From Bacteroidales bacterium (GTDB lineage Bacteria; Bacteroidota; Bacteroidia; Bacteroidales; Muribaculaceae), in assembly GCA_014800795.1 (NCBI GenBank), contig JAAVFL010000040.1, positions 54,167 through 118,166 on the forward strand: a stretch of 64,000 nt of DNA, read 5' to 3'. Position 1 is the first letter of the stretch. Each line of letters opens with the position of its first letter. The position numbers and the translations under genes are program-made. Below the pieces are notes generated by a model that was not told the DNA's origin, searched no databases, and saw nothing but the letters and a program-made list of their open reading frames with translations. Below, piece by piece: positions 38,714 to 48,773 of this stretch.

Positions 38714-41101
38714 ATGAAAAAAATATATATTACATCCCTGATGGCGCTTTCGCTCTTTTCGGCAGGGGCGGGTGTGCTCGACCTCCAGAGCCGCCGACAG
38801 TTGCTTGAACGTGAACAGCTCCGTCAACCGCGTACTTCTGTGGCAGGAAGCGTGCGCCAGAAGGCTCAGTCTGCAAAGTCCATCCTTACCGGGCGTGAGA
38901 CCACTCTGGCATTTGTTAAGATTGAGGATGGTTATACAGCCGATGATCTGCGTGCCGACGGAATCAATGTGCTTACGGTGCGTGGCAATGTAGCTATCGC
39001 CGAGGTCCCTTATTCCGAGGCTGAAGTTCTGGCGGCGAAGAGCAGTGTGAAACTGATGCAGTTCGAACGTCCGGTGAATGTGAAGATGGATATTGCCCGC
39101 GCGGTATCCGGAACGGATGTCATACATGAGGGGGCAGACGGTCTGCCGCGCGCCTATACAGGTAAAGGTGTGTTGGCCGCGATTGTCGATCAGGGTATGG
39201 ATCCCAATCATGTCAACTTTCTTGATGCTGACGGTGAAAACCGTATCAAATATCTGGCGCAGATGCGCTACAACGCCATGGGTACTGACGTGGCACCCGT
39301 TTATTACGGGTCGGATGTAAAAGATGCACGTCCGATTTCGGAATTCACAACCGACGATCAGTCGACTTATCACGGAACACACACCCTCGGTATCATGGCA
39401 GGATCCTACAAGGGGGCTCTCGAGGTGTCGGAAGGGACCGATGCACTCGGTGAGTCTATCGTAAAGACTGTCGACAATCCATACTACGGTGTGGCGACGG
39501 ATGCTGATCTGGCTGTGTCGTGCGGTCTGCTTACCGATGTCTGCATAGCTTACGGCATGGATTACATGTATGGCTACGGGGTTGAGTACAGACAGATGCC
39601 GATGGTCTACAATCTTTCGCTCGGTTCGAACACCGGCGCCCACGATCCCCGCTCGTCGATGTCGGAATTTCTCGATGCCGTGGGTGAAGAAACCATAATT
39701 TGTGTGTCGGCAGGTAACGAGGGCGATTCCAAGGCCGCCCTTAACAAGACACTTTCGGAAAGCGATAATACGATAAAGACCTTCATCCATCCCAAGTTGT
39801 ATCATTACGAGGAAGGTGGGCAGAGTGTCGAGACACAGAATACATGGCGCTACGGAAATATCACCGTTTATGGCGACGATGATACGGAGTTCCAGGTGCG
39901 TGTAGTCCTATACCGTAAGAGCCGCAACTACCGTGTGGCGTATGAGATGCCGGCTGTTTCGACCGATACATATAAGGTATATTGCACGGATGATAGCTAC
40001 GGCGGCGACGTGGTGGCTCCGGCCAACGGCCCGTTCGCGGCATATTTCGATGGTTACGTGGCTATAGCCCGGATGCTTGATCCGGCTACAAACCGCTTCT
40101 ACTGCGACATCCAGCTCGACATAATAGACAAGGAAGCTAATTATAAGGACGAGGAGATGCTCGTAGGGCTTGAGGTGACCGGTACGGCAGGTCATCGCTA
40201 TGATGTTTACAGCGATGCCACCACCGTAAGTTTCGATAACTACGGAATCGAGGGCTTTGACGACGGATCGCGTAACGGCACTCTCTCGGATATGGCGGTG
40301 GGCTACAATCTGGTGACTGTAGGATCGTACAATACCCGTCAGGAGTGGACAACTCTCGACGGTGGCAAACCCAGCTATGCCGGCGACGGTTTCCGCCCCG
40401 GATATGTGAGTGATTTCTCATCGTTCTCAACTCTGGCCGACGGACGCAACCTGCCTCTGGTGTGCGCACCCGGATCTGCCGTTATATCGTCGATGAGCCT
40501 TCCATATATGGAATATTACACCGATTATCTGGCATCGCAGACCGGTGTCAAGCTTACCGATGCGATGCGCCGTGAATATTACGATTATCTTTGCAGCGGG
40601 CGTGCCACCGGCGCCGATGGCAAAATCCATTACTGGAAGCAGGAGGTCGGAACCTCGATGTCAACTCCTTTTGTGGCAGGTAATATAGCTCTCTGGCTTG
40701 AGGCTGATCCCACGCTGAAGATTCAGGATGTTCAGGATATCATAGCCCGCACGGCTGTGCGCGATGAATATGTGGAGGCAGGCGATCCGGTTCAGTGGGG
40801 CGCCGGTAAGTTCGATGCGCTCGCAGGTCTTAAAGAGGTGATCCGTAATACGGGGATCGTAGGTGTATCCTCCGGCAGCCACAACGACCGCCTGATGGTA
40901 ACCTCCGAGGGATCTGGCAGATTTAATGTTTTCGTCGGAGGCGCCACCGCTGTTGATGTGGCCCTCACTTCGATGAGCGGATCCGTAGCGTTACGTCAGA
41001 GCGGTGCCGGCGATGAACTAAGTGTGGATGCATCGTCGCTTCCGGCAGGGGTGTATGTGCTTACTGCTAACGGTCACTCTCAGAAAATTGTACTAAGATA
41101 A
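38714..41101 (+). CDS. Secreted S8 family (subtilisin-like) serine peptidase with T9SS-like C-terminus
   Basis: AAIVDQGMDPNHVNF (Asp), TYHGTHTLGIMAGS (His), GTSMSTPFVAGNIALWLEADP (Ser); C-terminus LPAGVYVLTANGHSQKIVLR. Confidence 0.93.
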   Translation: MKKIYITSLMALSLFSAGAGVLDLQSRRQLLEREQLRQPRTSVAGSVRQKAQSAKSILTGRETTLAFVKIEDGYTADDLRADGINVLTVRGNVAIAEVPYSEAEVLAAKSSVKLMQFERPVNVKMDIARAVSGTDVIHEGADGLPRAYTGKGVLAAIVDQGMDPNHVNFLDADGENRIKYLAQMRYNAMGTDVAPVYYGSDVKDARPISEFTTDDQSTYHGTHTLGIMAGSYKGALEVSEGTDALGESIVKTVDNPYYGVATDADLAVSCGLLTDVCIAYGMDYMYGYGVEYRQMPMVYNLSLGSNTGAHDPRSSMSEFLDAVGEETIICVSAGNEGDSKAALNKTLSESDNTIKTFIHPKLYHYEEGGQSVETQNTWRYGNITVYGDDDTEFQVRVVLYRKSRNYRVAYEMPAVSTDTYKVYCTDDSYGGDVVAPANGPFAAYFDGYVAIARMLDPATNRFYCDIQLDIIDKEANYKDEEMLVGLEVTGTAGHRYDVYSDATTVSFDNYGIEGFDDGSRNGTLSDMAVGYNLVTVGSYNTRQEWTTLDGGKPSYAGDGFRPGYVSDFSSFSTLADGRNLPLVCAPGSAVISSMSLPYMEYYTDYLASQTGVKLTDAMRREYYDYLCSGRATGADGKIHYWKQEVGTSMSTPFVAGNIALWLEADPTLKIQDVQDIIARTAVRDEYVEAGDPVQWGAGKFDALAGLKEVIRNTGIVGVSSGSHNDRLMVTSEGSGRFNVFVGGATAVDVALTSMSGSVALRQSGAGDELSVDASSLPAGVYVLTANGHSQKIVLR

Positions 41102-41126: not shown

Positions 41127-44100
41127 ATGAACTGTAGTTTTGCTAAAATTGCCACAGGACTTTTCGTGGCTGCCGCCATGGCGTCGGGGGGAGCCCAGAA
41201 CCTGTCGGCCCAGAATGCTGAGGTTCCGATCATCACATTCAAAACAAATATTTATGACACCTATGGTGCGGAAAATTCTTTCCATATTACTCTCGGAGCC
41301 ACCGAAACAGATTATTTCGATGTAGACTGCGGCTTCGGAATGGTGGAGGCGGAGGTGTCGCCGGCATATTTCAATTCTGAAACACAGGCTATGGTGGGCA
41401 CTCCTATTCAATGTGTGGTAAGCCAGGAAGGTCTGGTGAAAATATATGGCGATCCGGCCAAGATCGATTATATAGATTGCGAGGGTTGCTATATCGACTG
41501 GATCGAGATGCCGGATCTTGTAAATCTGGAAATCATTGATATGTCGCACAACGAGCTGAAGCGTCTCGACCTGTCGCCATTCAGAAATCTCTATGCCGTG
41601 TATCTCTCCGACAATCCTTTTACACCAGAAAATCCGGCAAAGATTGGCCCGGATCATCCGAATCTGACTATTCTCGAACTTGATATTCTCGACTATGTGG
41701 ATCAGGATCTCAACCTGAGCGATTATCCTGCTCTTCAGGCTTTCGACGGTTATCATACGCTGGATCTGCGGAAGGTTGATGTTTCGGGATGTCCGCAATT
41801 GCGCTCGCTCACTCTCGAAATGACTTCCGTTGAGAGTCTCGACTTATCGAAGAATGCGAATCTGATGAGCCTCAACATATCTGAAAGCCGTGTGCGCTCT
41901 GTTGATCTGAGTAAGAACACCAAACTTCAGTATCTCTATTGCGGTCACACCTCCGGATTCGTAAACACCGATATAAAGATGGACAAGGTGGATGTAACCA
42001 ACAATGGCGAACTGGTGTATCTTGCGGCTCAATGCAACGATCTTACTTCGATCGACCTGAGCAACAATCCCAATCTGGTGAACCTGTTGCTTCAGGGAAA
42101 TAATCTGTCTGAGATAGATCTCAGCGCAAATACGGAGCTTTATCGCGTGAATTTGTCAGGAAACAATTTTTCTTTCGCCACACTTCCGGTGCCGCAACCT
42201 ACATGGGGAGAGTATTATTACGATAATCAACATTTCGAGGTAAACCGCAGCTATGAGGTGAACAAACCAATCGACTTCTCGGCCAAGGTTATGCGCCCGG
42301 GATCGGTTACGACTGCCCAACCCTATACGATACCTTACGGCAGTCAGCCTGAGGAAATGGATGCCTCCACCTATACTTTCGAGAACGGTATAATAACCTT
42401 TAATGAAGTTCCGGCGGACTCGGTATATGTGAAATTCGCCAATACTGTTTTTGAAGAATATACGATTGAGTCCGGAACTTTCAAGATCAAGAGCGCCGCC
42501 GAGATGAATCAGCCCTCCAATGTGCTTTCGATCCATGTGGATGCCACACGCTCCGCCGATACGTTCGCCTTCAAGGTAGGATTGGATTCAAGCCGGTCGG
42601 GGAGCGATGAGTTCTATGTCGACGTGCAGTCGCGCGGTGAAGTTGCCCGCCATACATTCAGCGCGGCTTCCGTTACTGTTCCTGCTGAAAACAATGTGAC
42701 ACTTACGCTTCCTTCCGGAGCGGATGCCGATCTGGTGGTATACATGCCAGAAAATTCGGTTCTGACAGCTTTGGAAATCGAAAGTATGCCGGTTGCATCC
42801 ATCGATTTGTCACGTGCCACCGAGTTGCGCACTCTGGCTGTGAGAGGCTGCGGGCTTGGGAATATCGATCTCCGCTACAACCGTTGCCTTACGTTTATCG
42901 ACCTGTCGGATAACAATCTCCCCGCGCTCGATCTGAGCGGCGTGTATGGAAATTACGAAAAATTCGTTCTTACCACGGTTATAGCCGACCACAATGAAAT
43001 ATCCGAATTCATCGTTCCCTCTCCGGCCAGTATAGAGGTGGTGGACCTGTCATATAACAAGCTCTCGCAGCTTCTTCTGCAAAATTATACCGGCATAAAG
43101 AAAATTGATCTGAGCCACAACTCTATTACCGGAAGCATTACGCTTACATATCTGACAGAAGCCGAGTGTATTGATCTGTCGTATAATCAGCTTGAAGACA
43201 TGCTGATAGATACTTTCCCCGCGAATGTATCTTTCGACATAAGCCATAACAGATTCACCTTTGCCACACTGCCCTATCTGCCACAATATGCAGGTTATGT
43301 CTATGCGCCTCAGGCCACGCTCGAGATCGTGAATCCCGCGCCTGCCGTCAACATATCCGCCCAGAACCGCGATATAGATGGGGTGTCGACATCTTTCATC
43401 TGGAAAAATGTAGCCGATGGCAAGCCCCTCGCAGAAGGCACCGATATGGAATGTAACGGAGGGGCTACGCGCTTCCTTCCCGCGGCCTTAGGCAAGGAGG
43501 TTTATTGCGAGTTAAGTCATACCGCCTTTCCGCAATTCAGAGGCGAGGATATGTTCTGCACCACCACTACAAAAATTGTTGATGCTCCTACCAAAGTTGT
43601 GGCCTCCTTTACGACAACTTCCTCTGTTAGCAATGCGGAGGTAATATTCCGCGGTCATAAGAACACGGCCCTCTACATCGACTGGCGTGGCGACGGAAGC
43701 GAATATACGCAGTATCCAGTTGTGTCGGGCAGCTATTTGAGCTATCCCGAACAGACTACCTATGCCGGAGCGAACGTAAAGATCTACACTTATGAGGATC
43801 CGTCCGACATCAGTGTATTCTCTATTTACGATACCCCGATGCAGAATCTCGATGCGTCGGCTCTTACCGGAGTATATGCCTTCTCGATAGGTGGCTGCGG
43901 TATTGATGAAGCCAACGTAGTGTTCCCGGCCACAACCGCAATCATCGAAATGAATCTTTCGGATAATAATTTTTCGACCAAGAATTTCAGTGAATTTGTG
44001 GAACTCAAGAGTCTCAATCTTTCGAACAACTCATATGAGGTGTTCGATGCAGGCAACCTACCTGCTCTTCAGACACTGTTTATGGACCGCAACAAACTGA

Positions 44101-44816
44101 CTGAACTCAAACTCAACAATCCGTCGATGTGGGGATTGTCGGTAGCCGTCAATATGCTTTCGGAAATGGATTTCAGCAATGCTAAAAAAATAACCGATCT
44201 TGTTCTTTCAAACAATAACTTCAGGAGCATCGACCTGAAGCCTCTTGCAAGCCGGTTGGTGACCCTTGCTTTAGACCAGAATCGATTTACCTTCGCATCG
44301 CTTCCTCGCAGGTCGGCGATGTATGCACTGACAAATTACTTTTACGGAAACCAGGCAGATGTGGAGGTAACTTGTGTCGACGGAAAGGTTGACCTGTCGG
44401 ATAATGCAAAGGTCGACGGTATAGCTACGGAATACGCGTGGTATCTCGGTCCTGTTGAATATGACAGCGAGACCGGTGAATTTGTAGGCGAGTTGCTCGA
44501 CAACTCCGGTGCTGATCCGGAATACACCGTGGAGAATGGTGTCACTTCATTCTTCTCTACCTTCGACGATAATGTTTGCGGTGTGCTTACTAATTCAAAT
44601 TATCCCAACCTGATTCTGTACACCGTTCCGGTGCATGTTGACCGCTCGGCCGGAGTAGACAACGTATCTGCCGACTATGCCGACCCCGATGCGCCTGTAG
44701 ATGTCTACACCGTGTCCGGTGTCTTGATCCGCTCGCAGGTAGCTCCCGCCGAGGCGACAGCCGGTCTCGCTCCCGGCATCTATGTCGTGGGCGGCAGCAA
44801 AGTGGCCGTCCGCTGA
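41127..44816 (+). CDS. Leucine-rich repeat surface protein, three LRR modules, T9SS-like C-terminus
   Basis: Repeats such as LDLSKNANLMSLNISESRVRSVDLSKNTKLQYL; C-terminus VDVYTVSGVLIRSQ...LAPGIYVVGGSKVAVR. Confidence 0.88.
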   Translation: MNCSFAKIATGLFVAAAMASGGAQNLSAQNAEVPIITFKTNIYDTYGAENSFHITLGATETDYFDVDCGFGMVEAEVSPAYFNSETQAMVGTPIQCVVSQEGLVKIYGDPAKIDYIDCEGCYIDWIEMPDLVNLEIIDMSHNELKRLDLSPFRNLYAVYLSDNPFTPENPAKIGPDHPNLTILELDILDYVDQDLNLSDYPALQAFDGYHTLDLRKVDVSGCPQLRSLTLEMTSVESLDLSKNANLMSLNISESRVRSVDLSKNTKLQYLYCGHTSGFVNTDIKMDKVDVTNNGELVYLAAQCNDLTSIDLSNNPNLVNLLLQGNNLSEIDLSANTELYRVNLSGNNFSFATLPVPQPTWGEYYYDNQHFEVNRSYEVNKPIDFSAKVMRPGSVTTAQPYTIPYGSQPEEMDASTYTFENGIITFNEVPADSVYVKFANTVFEEYTIESGTFKIKSAAEMNQPSNVLSIHVDATRSADTFAFKVGLDSSRSGSDEFYVDVQSRGEVARHTFSAASVTVPAENNVTLTLPSGADADLVVYMPENSVLTALEIESMPVASIDLSRATELRTLAVRGCGLGNIDLRYNRCLTFIDLSDNNLPALDLSGVYGNYEKFVLTTVIADHNEISEFIVPSPASIEVVDLSYNKLSQLLLQNYTGIKKIDLSHNSITGSITLTYLTEAECIDLSYNQLEDMLIDTFPANVSFDISHNRFTFATLPYLPQYAGYVYAPQATLEIVNPAPAVNISAQNRDIDGVSTSFIWKNVADGKPLAEGTDMECNGGATRFLPAALGKEVYCELSHTAFPQFRGEDMFCTTTTKIVDAPTKVVASFTTTSSVSNAEVIFRGHKNTALYIDWRGDGSEYTQYPVVSGSYLSYPEQTTYAGANVKIYTYEDPSDISVFSIYDTPMQNLDASALTGVYAFSIGGCGIDEANVVFPATTAIIEMNLSDNNFSTKNFSEFVELKSLNLSNNSYEVFDAGNLPALQTLFMDRNKLTELKLNNPSMWGLSVAVNMLSEMDFSNAKKITDLVLSNNNFRSIDLKPLASRLVTLALDQNRFTFASLPRRSAMYALTNYFYGNQADVEVTCVDGKVDLSDNAKVDGIATEYAWYLGPVEYDSETGEFVGELLDNSGADPEYTVENGVTSFFSTFDDNVCGVLTNSNYPNLILYTVPVHVDRSAGVDNVSADYADPDAPVDVYTVSGVLIRSQVAPAEATAGLAPGIYVVGGSKVAVR

Positions 44817-44835: not shown

Positions 44836-44885
44836 AAGTAAGATGCGGTGTGGCGATTGTGTTTTCGTCACATCGCATCTTACTT
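44836..44885 (+). terminator. Terminator after LRR protein gene
   Basis: AGTAAGATGCGGTGTGGCGA...TCGTCACATCGCATCTTACT followed by TTT. Confidence 0.75.
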
Positions 44886-45170
44886 TTAAGTTATGAGATA
44901 CAGTGCAACTCGCACATACCTACAGCACCTCGCGCACGACTATTTTGATACATTTGTTGTGATATATGCGATATATATGTTGCGCATATTGCAGTTAATT
45001 CGTAATTTTGCGCGTGGAGGCGACCGCGTAAACTTGTTTGTGATCGGATGGTTGGCTTTCGGAAAAATAGGGGTATATGCATTCTACGCCACGGTTGATG
45101 CTGTTTTGTCAGAGCTGTCGCGCGTTGGTTTCGGCATATCGGTTCACACTCCTTCTTTAGAAACCAATTA

Positions 45171-48100
45171 TTGTACAATACCGGCGAAGTGAGCCACGCG
45201 GTAAAAAATTTTCCAAAACCGTATGAAAAGGTTTTTACTTGCGATTTTCGGGGGAATTCTGCTGTTTTTACCCCCCCCCGTATTTTAGCTCAATCATTTG
45301 AGTTTCAAGGAATTAATTACGAGATTAGTAATAACGAGAACAAAACGTGTGCCGTCACCGGCTACACAACCATCCCCGAAAATCTTGTGATTCCGGCGGA
45401 AGTCACCTACGAGGACGAAAATTATGCCGTAACCGAAATTGCCGGTTACGCGTTTAGCAGTTGCGGTTCGCTTAAGTCATGTATTATTCCCGCTAAGGTA
45501 ACTGAACTCGGGGAAGATGTGTTTGGAGGATGCTGGCGCTTAGCCAAAGTTCTGTATCCCTCTACTCTTGAGCCGGAATTTGGATACAGTAATCCTCTTA
45601 CAGTTTCATATGATCCTGAGAATGGGATGACAGTCGACTCACACGGATGTGCTTACACTGACAATGGAGAGACACTTATATTTGTTCCTGTAGGGGATGT
45701 GGGTGACCTGATTATTCCTGAGGGTGTGAGGACTATAACTTCTACGGCATTCCGCGGGTGTGAAATCAAGGCCCTGACATTACCTTCGACGCTGGAGACT
45801 ATTGAAGGAGATGCGTTTATGTTCGGTTATGATTCGTCAACAGACGATTATCTGGCAATGGGATGCAGCATTGAGCGTGTGAACTTCGTAGACTGGTCGA
45901 AATGGTATGCAAATGCGAAGCTCGGCAATCTGAACTCAAATCCATACCGCGAGTGTGGCGCTTACGCGGGTGGTATACAGATTGTGAATCCTCCCATGCC
46001 TGACGGACTGACAGAGATCGGCGATTACGTGAATGTGGGTATTACTTTCGACGGCGAGATAATCTTCCCTTCCACACTGAGGAAGATCGGAGCGTATGCG
46101 TTCTCCGGTCAGAAGGATCTCTACTATGTGGAGTTTCCGGATGGGCTTGAGGAGATAGGGGCTCACGCTTTCGACGGTTGTGAAACCCTGACTTTCGAGA
46201 GCTTACCTTCAACGCTCACCTCAATCGGCGCATATGCGTTCAACGGGTGCGCAAGCCAGACTGCCATCGTGCTGCCTGAGAAGCTTACAGATCTCGGAGA
46301 AGGAGCCTTCTCCAATATGACAAGTCTGAAGAAAGCGGTTCTATTCTCTAAACTTACTGAGGTCCCGGATAAGCTCTGCTACGAATGTAACAAGCTTGAG
46401 AGCGTGTATCTACCAAAGATGGCAACCAGCATAGGTTTTCAAGCCTTTGCTGATACAGCTTTGGATGAAGTGATTTTACCTCAGGTAATAGAAACTATAG
46501 ATGACTTTGCTTTTGCAAAAGAATCTGAGCGAGGAGCTGGAGCCCTTAGTAAAATTTCCTTCCCGGAAAGCCTTCAGGAGATCGGCGAAGGGGCCTTTAT
46601 GTCTCAGAAATTCCGAATCCTCGAATTTAATGAAGGGTTGAAAACTATTGGATACGCGGCTTTCGCAAATAACAATAATCTCACAACCATCAAATTCCCG
46701 TCGACTCTTGAATCAATCGGTCAGAACGCTTTTTCAACTTCTTATTATGATAAGAAAACAACCAGGGTCATACTCCCCTCAACTATGACTGAACTGGGTT
46801 CAGGTGCGTTCAGCAATAACGCTGTCGGCGAATTTGAAACGGGCGATGGTCTAACCACTATTGAAGTATGGTCCTTGGGCCGCCCGCAAATCCTGACAAT
46901 CGGCAGCGGTGTGAAAAGTATTGCCGACGGTGCGCTTGATTTCTCCGAAATGAAGGTGTTCCGCATGAAGTGTAAGACACCTCCGTCTGTAGCCACGGCC
47001 TTCAACGTCACCGACGAGCAGATCGACAAGCTCGCATTCATAGTTCCCGACGGTGCCAAAACCGCTTATGAGCGCAATCCGCGTTGGAAAGTGTTCAATA
47101 TCGTAGAGGAGTCGGAGAGCGATGTGACGGTGTATGTCGACGGCACATTCTCCATCGCCGAGGAGGTGCGCATGCAGAGCGGCATCATGCCTTCGCTGGT
47201 TACCAAGCTGAGGGTTACCGGTACGCTCGCCGACAGCGACTGGCGTCTGATCAACGAAAACATGGTATCGCTGATCTCGCTCGATCTCTCCGGGATTTCC
47301 AACACCGAGATTCCTGACGGGGCATTTGAGAATAAGGATCTTCTTGCTGAAATCATCCTCCCGTCGCAGCTGACAAAAATCGGCAACAGCGCCTTCTCAG
47401 GATGCTCGCTCCTTGACACACCTGAGCTTCCGGAAACTCTGGAATATATCGGCGGATATGCGTTCAGAGGATGTCAGAGGCTCTCGATTTCGGTGCTTCC
47501 CGATGCGCTGGAGTTCATGGGTTACGGAAGTTTCCAGGGATGTACTTCCCTTCGCTCCATCATTGCCGGCCCGAACATGGTTCTGGACACTTCTGCCGCC
47601 GGTTTTAATTTCCAAGACTGTACGGCTCTCGAGTTTGTGGACTTTGGTCGCACCCCGATAGAACATCTGCCGTGGGCTACATTTAAGGGATGCACTTCGC
47701 TTACCGACATTGTGCTTCCGCAGAATCTGAACTATATCGCATCTGATGTGTTCGCCAACTCAGCTCTGGAGTCGGTAGACCTACCTGCGACTCTCGAGTC
47801 GATCGGCAACAGCGCTTTCCAGGGAACAAAACTGCGCACCGTAAGCATACCCGAAGGGGTGACCTATATCAGCGACAATACTTTCGCCGATTGCGCCCGA
47901 CTTATCAATGTGAATTTTCCGGAGTCGCTGACCGGTATCGGTACAAATGTTATGAACGGCTCTACGAAGGTGTCGGGTATCAGCTGTCCGTCGGTAGATG
48001 CTCCGTCGGCCCAGACCGGCGCGTTCGCATCGCTGAGCGCACGTAAGTGCAGCCTGACGGTTCCTCGTCAGTCGTACCGCGCATATCTAAGCGCTCCCCA

Positions 48101-48773
48101 GTGGGGCATCTTCGCCAATCTGATTAACTCGCTCAATGTCACAGTGCCCGAGAACGCTGTTCTTACCTCAGTAGACGAGGAAGAGTATCAGGAAATAGTG
48201 GAAGAGGAGGCACTTATAGCCGAAGCCGAGGCTCCCCTTGAGGAAGAGGAGGAGAATCCTGAGGAGAACGAAGATGAAAACGGCGGCGAAGATAATGGCG
48301 AAGATGAAAACACCCCCGCCCCATCGCGCGCAAAGATCCGCAAGGCTGCCCGCGAAACGCTCACCTCGACAGGCCGAAACTACGCACGTCTGTTTGACGG
48401 CGCCACCCTCGGCTCGCCCAAGACCTCGAAGGGAACGCGCGTGTTCATCAACCTGAAGGAGAACACTACGCTCAAGGCCGTGCGCTACAACAACAAGGAT
48501 ATCACCGATCAGTTGGATGGCAACAACTCGATACTGCTGCCACAGAACGCCGCCGGATCGCTCGAGATTGTAACTGAAGCCATTATTACCGGTATCGAAG
48601 AGGTTGCTGCCTCTGCCGGCGGATCGATCGATGCCGACACCCTCTGCTCGGTATATGATACCGCAGGCCGTCTGGTAGCTTCGGGTCGCCGTGGAGAGGT
48701 AGTATCGGAACTCTCGGCCGGTCTCTACATCCTCAAGGCGGGTCCGCTGACCGAGAAGATCGCTGTGAAATAA
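45171..48773 (+). CDS. BspA-type (LRR_5) leucine-rich repeat surface protein with T9SS-like C-terminus; likely start ATG 45223 is out of frame by one base at a C9 tract
   Basis: Repeats like IGAYAFSGQKDLYYVEFPDGLEEIGAHAFDGCETL; C-terminus VYDTAGRLVASGRRGEVVSELSAGLYILKAGPLTEKIAVK. The listed ORF begins at TTG without a signal peptide. Confidence 0.85.
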   Translation: MYNTGEVSHAVKNFPKPYEKVFTCDFRGNSAVFTPPRILAQSFEFQGINYEISNNENKTCAVTGYTTIPENLVIPAEVTYEDENYAVTEIAGYAFSSCGSLKSCIIPAKVTELGEDVFGGCWRLAKVLYPSTLEPEFGYSNPLTVSYDPENGMTVDSHGCAYTDNGETLIFVPVGDVGDLIIPEGVRTITSTAFRGCEIKALTLPSTLETIEGDAFMFGYDSSTDDYLAMGCSIERVNFVDWSKWYANAKLGNLNSNPYRECGAYAGGIQIVNPPMPDGLTEIGDYVNVGITFDGEIIFPSTLRKIGAYAFSGQKDLYYVEFPDGLEEIGAHAFDGCETLTFESLPSTLTSIGAYAFNGCASQTAIVLPEKLTDLGEGAFSNMTSLKKAVLFSKLTEVPDKLCYECNKLESVYLPKMATSIGFQAFADTALDEVILPQVIETIDDFAFAKESERGAGALSKISFPESLQEIGEGAFMSQKFRILEFNEGLKTIGYAAFANNNNLTTIKFPSTLESIGQNAFSTSYYDKKTTRVILPSTMTELGSGAFSNNAVGEFETGDGLTTIEVWSLGRPQILTIGSGVKSIADGALDFSEMKVFRMKCKTPPSVATAFNVTDEQIDKLAFIVPDGAKTAYERNPRWKVFNIVEESESDVTVYVDGTFSIAEEVRMQSGIMPSLVTKLRVTGTLADSDWRLINENMVSLISLDLSGISNTEIPDGAFENKDLLAEIILPSQLTKIGNSAFSGCSLLDTPELPETLEYIGGYAFRGCQRLSISVLPDALEFMGYGSFQGCTSLRSIIAGPNMVLDTSAAGFNFQDCTALEFVDFGRTPIEHLPWATFKGCTSLTDIVLPQNLNYIASDVFANSALESVDLPATLESIGNSAFQGTKLRTVSIPEGVTYISDNTFADCARLINVNFPESLTGIGTNVMNGSTKVSGISCPSVDAPSAQTGAFASLSARKCSLTVPRQSYRAYLSAPQWGIFANLINSLNVTVPENAVLTSVDEEEYQEIVEEEALIAEAEAPLEEEEENPEENEDENGGEDNGEDENTPAPSRAKIRKAARETLTSTGRNYARLFDGATLGSPKTSKGTRVFINLKENTTLKAVRYNNKDITDQLDGNNSILLPQNAAGSLEIVTEAIITGIEEVAASAGGSIDADTLCSVYDTAGRLVASGRRGEVVSELSAGLYILKAGPLTEKIAVK
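45271..45279 (+). repeat. Homopolymeric C9 tract at signal-peptide/body junction
   Basis: gctgttttta ccccccccc gtattttagct read directly. Confidence 0.95.

Follow-up and report, generated by a model that had tools for sequence, protein, structure and literature searches.

Genomic context of the BspA-type gene

The window, the whole stretch of 64 kb analysed here, lies within contig C40 of a 2.72-Mb genome that is assembled in 54 contigs and is 99 per cent complete. Within it, a mechanically predicted open reading frame (45171-48773, TTG start, 1,200 aa) has a body of 1,160 residues that matches the family PF13306 (LRR_5) with an E value of 7.6e-134 and a score of 440 bits against a gathering cut-off of 27.7, bearing out the original prediction of a BspA-like LRR body; its frame is open to 48773. 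The gene and its upstream surroundings comprise the following features:

38714-41101: subtilase with a T9SS-type tail, upstream of the BspA-type gene
41127-44816: upstream LRR protein gene, with internalin-like LRRs
44837..44884, plus strand: terminator-like intrinsic hairpin from a terminator scan (20-pair stem, then a T-rich tail)
44980..45010, plus strand: match to a Bacteroidetes-type promoter, TTG-N20-TAATTTTG (-33/-7), from a pattern scan (consensus match only)
45171..45278, plus strand: leader of the mechanically predicted ORF, with a TTG start and in the body frame, LYNTGEVSHAVKNFPKPYEKVFTCDFRGNSAVFTPP, without a signal peptide
45223..45288, plus strand: ATG and signal-peptide frame, MKRFLLAIFGGILLFLPPPVF followed by TAG (45286-45288)
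45271..45279, plus strand: C9 homopolymer at the frame break, between the hydrophobic core of the signal peptide and ILAQ
45279..48773, plus strand: body frame of the BspA-type LRR protein, no internal stop

The hairpin stands after the upstream LRR gene and parts it from the BspA-type gene; the promoter match, one of 15 that the pattern has in the window on both strands, would give a predicted 5' leader of about 200 nt. On the 3' side of the BspA-type gene is a porin gene on the opposite strand, for which the nearest named records are MAGs of Muribaculaceae and Porphyromonadaceae. In record L131, which is syntenic, the porin directly adjoins the upstream LRR gene with no BspA-type gene between them: this record keeps the subtilase and the LRR gene beside the porin, and the BspA-type gene is not kept.

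The coding score of the body is typical of its genome, and there is no further lesion over its 1,160 codons. A Sec signal peptide directly before the N-terminal domain is present in the out-of-frame reading from the ATG, a layout that relatives share. We read the gene as coding for a BspA-type LRR protein that is secreted or exposed at the surface, by analogy a putative adhesin. The sorting domain TIGR04183 (NCBIfam) was reported for the neighbouring subtilase and not for the BspA-type protein, whose C-terminal tail resembles a T9SS sorting tail by eye and is not scored as one; a model of the T9SS translocon SprA found no match anywhere, controls included.

A frame break at the C9 tract

The coordinates given in the original prediction proved right: an ATG at 45223 opens the signal-peptide frame, nine C's occupy 45271-45279, and the stop TAG follows at 45286. 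The body frame, one frame away, is entered at R-I-L-A-Q-S-F (codon 45279). Because a signal-peptide-like ATG peptide in another frame near the gene start occurs in only 1 of 233 genes sampled from the same genome, we judge that the upstream peptide is not a product of chance. Over the 48 bases before the tract, the signal-peptide frame also scores as more coding than the other two, a weak difference given the shortness of the stretch.

As reference for the frame test we took L263 (genome G312), which of the full-length relatives with a preserved 5' end is the closest; in a family search it aligned along nearly all of the body at 42 per cent identity. Its N-terminus, MKRFLLTLVGMLLALP, matches the signal-peptide frame over residues 1-16 (0 or 1 of 2,000 shuffles as good) and the body frame from residue 17 (0 of 2,000 shuffles as good), where ILAQDF... 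stands against ILAQSF... in the body frame. Residues 1-16 lie in one frame and those from 17 onward in the other, and the break is therefore at the C tract. Signal peptide and body are thus consecutive on one intact relative protein, and the length of the tract sets the reading frame of the product. Both the signal peptide and the position of the break, as originally predicted, are upheld by this alignment.

The leader that starts at TTG 45171 aligns to the same relative more weakly and in a displaced position (26 of 2000 shuffles as good), and we judge it not to be the real N-terminus. This agrees with the earlier view of the TTG as an implausible start: the leader is out of register, and intact relatives begin with a signal peptide.

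Relatives and conservation of the tract

The family search returned relatives at 33-57 per cent identity, and relatives and paralogs share an order in which the signal peptide is followed by F-x-x-x-G-x-x-Y. The comparison of tract lengths in orthologous loci that had been proposed as a check went against a conserved tract: a genus search recovered no ortholog in 13 congeneric species, and the seven relatives with a readable 5' end have no C or G run of at least 6 and no A or T run of at least 7 near the start. Searching contigs with the protein for orthologs of other tract length likewise found no relative, and an exact scan of viral contigs for the upstream flank came back empty. With 13 congeners lacking it, the gene is species-specific within its genus.

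C tracts and frame breaks elsewhere in the genome

At nine bases, the tract lies just at the mononucleotide G/C cut-off of 9 that phasome surveys use for phase-variable loci (PMC5953494). Its length is not beyond chance for this genome, which has five C9 tracts, 15 C8 tracts and none longer; C8 matches in the window are within the expectation from dinucleotide shuffles. Genome-wide, 10 of the 11 coding C8/C9 tracts are in frame, in genes that include (names read from translations) ClpX, a LolD-type ABC protein, a polysaccharide flippase and a GtrA-like protein, and these tracts are not concentrated in surface genes. Since they also occur in housekeeping genes, the tract at the BspA-type gene may be accidental. 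Retention by selection, a supporting and not strictly defining feature of phase-variable loci, was likewise not seen, given the seven relatives without a tract and the similar tracts in the ClpX, LolD and GtrA-like genes.

We also surveyed 447 kb of the genome, including the window, for shifts of coding frame that no start codon accompanies. Many ordinary operon junctions come up in the coding-potential scan; those candidates that lack an ATG were inspected by eye. Roughly one further clear break emerged, in a small XRE-like gene that is split over two frames (G000:C4 about 145446-145900) and not at a homopolymer. Coding homopolymer runs of at least 7 in this sample sit within intact coding frames. 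A wider assembly error behind the break is unlikely: the rarity of frame breaks and the in-frame state of most C8/C9 tracts weaken what the original prediction had named as its main alternative. The assembly does not in general break homopolymers, and an error confined to this single tract has a small probability.

Other LRR_5 loci were compared across the same genome, which has ten, four of them disrupted including the C9 locus; three of the other nine are thus disrupted, by lesions that switching at a tract does not account for. At G000:C21 about 5755 (L091 about nt 1256-1268), a BspA-type LRR gene with an open frame of 750 codons is shifted by one base at an A7 run that follows its ATG directly, so that here too the signal peptide is cut off; the A7 run is too short for a typical switch. 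An LRR_5 gene at G000:C2:66.5-70 kb (L092) has an internal TAG, and an LRR_5 relic at G000:C35:147.5-148.7 kb (L096) carries two frame shifts away from homopolymers. In this lineage, ordinary mutation is removing members of the family.

Related layouts and a G-run element in other Muribaculaceae

The layout of an ATGA followed after 20-50 nt by C9 was sought in 397 Muribaculaceae genomes alongside a reversed control, and is not visibly enriched: by eye, counts were of the same order in both. Twelve matches were read, of which three (L222, L225 and L227) stay open over a long stretch across the tract in the frame of the ATG; only L225 among these has a signal-peptide-like N-terminus. This 1,132-residue ORF without a Pfam match (L225:1043-4438, genome G339) contains an in-frame C9 at its signal-peptide-like start, and so shares the layout of the BspA-type gene but is ON. 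Two Acyltransferase_3 genes carry an in-frame tract within their first codons, a C8 at G000:C52 about 13722 (L097:76-1245, minus strand) and a C10 at L227:814-1911 in another genus; acyltransferases are a class that is often phase variable elsewhere.

A promoter-like element of a different kind was observed in other Muribaculaceae (L272-L301, L100-L129), consisting of TTAAC direct repeats, G6-G11, TAA, about 14-17 nt and TAnnTTTG; the repeats often, not always, precede the poly-G-TAA, which keeps a fixed distance to the TAnnTTTG box. A search for G9-TA-N12..32-TAnnTTTG gave 146 matches in 149 genomes, and its reversed form 4 (hand tally); for TTAAC-N2..6-G5-N14..30-TAnnTTTG the counts are 69, in 39 genomes, and 1. 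Matches that join TTAAC, G run and TAnnTTTG are mostly 42-45 bases long with G6 to G10, such that total length is nearly constant. Many genes downstream encode secreted proteins or lipoproteins, that in L291 being BspA-like by eye. The element looks like a promoter or regulator element, and could be a site for a regulator built around a G run, or else represent promoters of a class tuned by homopolymers; we did not find it described in the literature searched. A reading of the C9 tract as such a G9-TAA promoter element on the minus strand was rejected: by inspection, neither the TTAAC nor the TAnnTTTG part is present on that strand, and the absence of any match to either G-run pattern in the genome of the C9 locus also rules against it. 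Elsewhere, a near-perfect palindrome, gcgCCCCCCCCCggaaaaatatttttccGGGGGGGGcgc (G000:C46:53671-53703), stands upstream of a 715-codon open frame.

Interpretation of the C9 locus

We read the sequenced allele as OFF, brought into that state by slippage in a tract prone to mutation, and as potentially reversible. In this model, the gene's own promoter would drive a secreted or surface BspA-type LRR protein whose frame has been broken by slippage in the C9 tract, in the c-region of the signal peptide. A ribosome would read the signal peptide and stop after 21 codons, so that no secreted LRR protein would come from this allele. Apart from this one-base change in a slippage-prone run the gene is intact, so that replication slippage could in principle bring the two parts back into frame. 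A phase-variable locus by definition needs observed, reversible and frequent switching, and accidental tracts do not count as phase variation (PMC11868660). Phase variation here is a reasonable hypothesis, not a result. That this is a phase-variable (translational ON/OFF) locus of a putative adhesin is the likeliest of the readings and comes near to an even chance without reaching it, and a true translational phase switch, based on a C homopolymer within the signal-peptide region of a Muribaculaceae adhesin of BspA type, is a tentative reading that we place somewhat below even. We infer that in such a switch C9 would be true in cells, with its length varying between cells and both states in use. 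Of the phase-variation layout originally predicted, the signal peptide, the body and the break at C9 have held. Variation in tract length and reversibility are hypothetical; the tract is not conserved in relatives, and the ordinary decay of other LRR_5 genes counts against a switch.

That decay by ordinary mutation makes a recent simple loss a serious rival, in which an accidental C tract mutated once and left a young pseudogene in a decaying family, with no evolved switch. The nonsense mutation and ordinary frame shifts at other LRR_5 loci, the accessory nature of the gene (absent in 13 congeners and from the syntenic site of L131), the lack of a tract in the seven relatives with a readable 5' end and the tracts of equal length in unrelated genes all fit such a loss, as does the separation of accidental tracts from phase variation in PMC11868660. 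However, the 1,160-codon body has no further lesion and the one lesion is of an easily reversible kind; a pristine body with a normal coding score counts for a switch, unlike the relic on C35 with its two frame shifts. We regard simple loss as a substantial possibility, if on balance an unlikely one. A sequencing or assembly error, by which cells would carry an in-frame tract and the gene would be ON, is improbable: homopolymer length is a classic weak point of several platforms, and at the second LRR gene, on C21, the frame break likewise falls on a homopolymer, but 10 of 11 coding C8/C9 tracts are in frame, the one or so other clear frame break in 447 kb is not at a homopolymer, and coding runs of at least 7 in that sample lie inside intact frames.

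Two further readings would leave the gene expressed in some form. The break could be bypassed by -1 ribosomal or transcriptional slippage on the C run, giving some full-length protein from a leaky OFF state. A C run permits re-pairing after a -1 slip, frame geometry calls for a slip in just that direction, and folding of the RNA downstream is somewhat better than that of shuffles (z -2.0, 8/200), yet the relatives are without such a site and no conserved stimulatory structure was shown, which leaves this bypass highly unlikely. A true start of the protein at TTG 45171, or at some other codon of the body frame, without a signal peptide we find barely credible: the ORF is open from 45171, but all intact relatives with a 5' end have a signal peptide directly before the same domain, and the alignment of the leader is poorer and out of register.

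Inversion is the textbook mechanism for surface-protein control in gut Bacteroidales. If length variants exist at the C9 locus, a slippage-based switch would be added to a group in which surface variation is usually put down to DNA inversion, and annotation pipelines would be missing secreted proteins caught in the OFF frame. If there are none, the locus would be a plain case of a recently formed pseudogene at a homopolymer, and would warn against taking every such tract for a switch.

Comparison with known systems

In Neisseria, the tract of pilC1 and pilC2 is positioned within the signal-peptide region. The likeness to the C9 locus is a C/G homopolymer of at least 9 within the reading frame of a secreted, adhesion-related protein; however, the pilC tracts are 9-20 long, conserved and experimentally switching, whereas the tract here is C9, lineage-specific and a candidate (PMC5953494). 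The invertible promoters of gut Bacteroides (capsule, SusC/SusD) likewise turn a Bacteroidales surface product ON and OFF, as the locus here is a candidate to do, but act by DNA inversion at the level of transcription, in contrast to slippage within the reading frame (PMC11868660). Short C tracts in which a one-base change leads to loss of the product are also known from siaD of MenB (C7) and from streptococcal mga (C8), which differ in being classed as accidental mutation-prone tracts and not as phase variation (PMC11868660); the C9 locus may be of the same sort. Repeat-tract phase variation of BspA-like proteins is already known in a mycoplasma, to which the C9 locus at best adds one case: BspA-like proteins of Ca. 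Mycoplasma girerdii are repeat-tract phase variable, and the reference state of some is OFF (PMC5476646). The repeats of that mollicute are dinucleotides, and length variants were seen in reads of one population, whereas one genome is at hand here; what the two have in common is a BspA/LRR surface protein with a frame-shifting simple repeat, found OFF in the reference for some of the mycoplasma's proteins (PMC5476646) and, as we read it, for the allele sequenced here.
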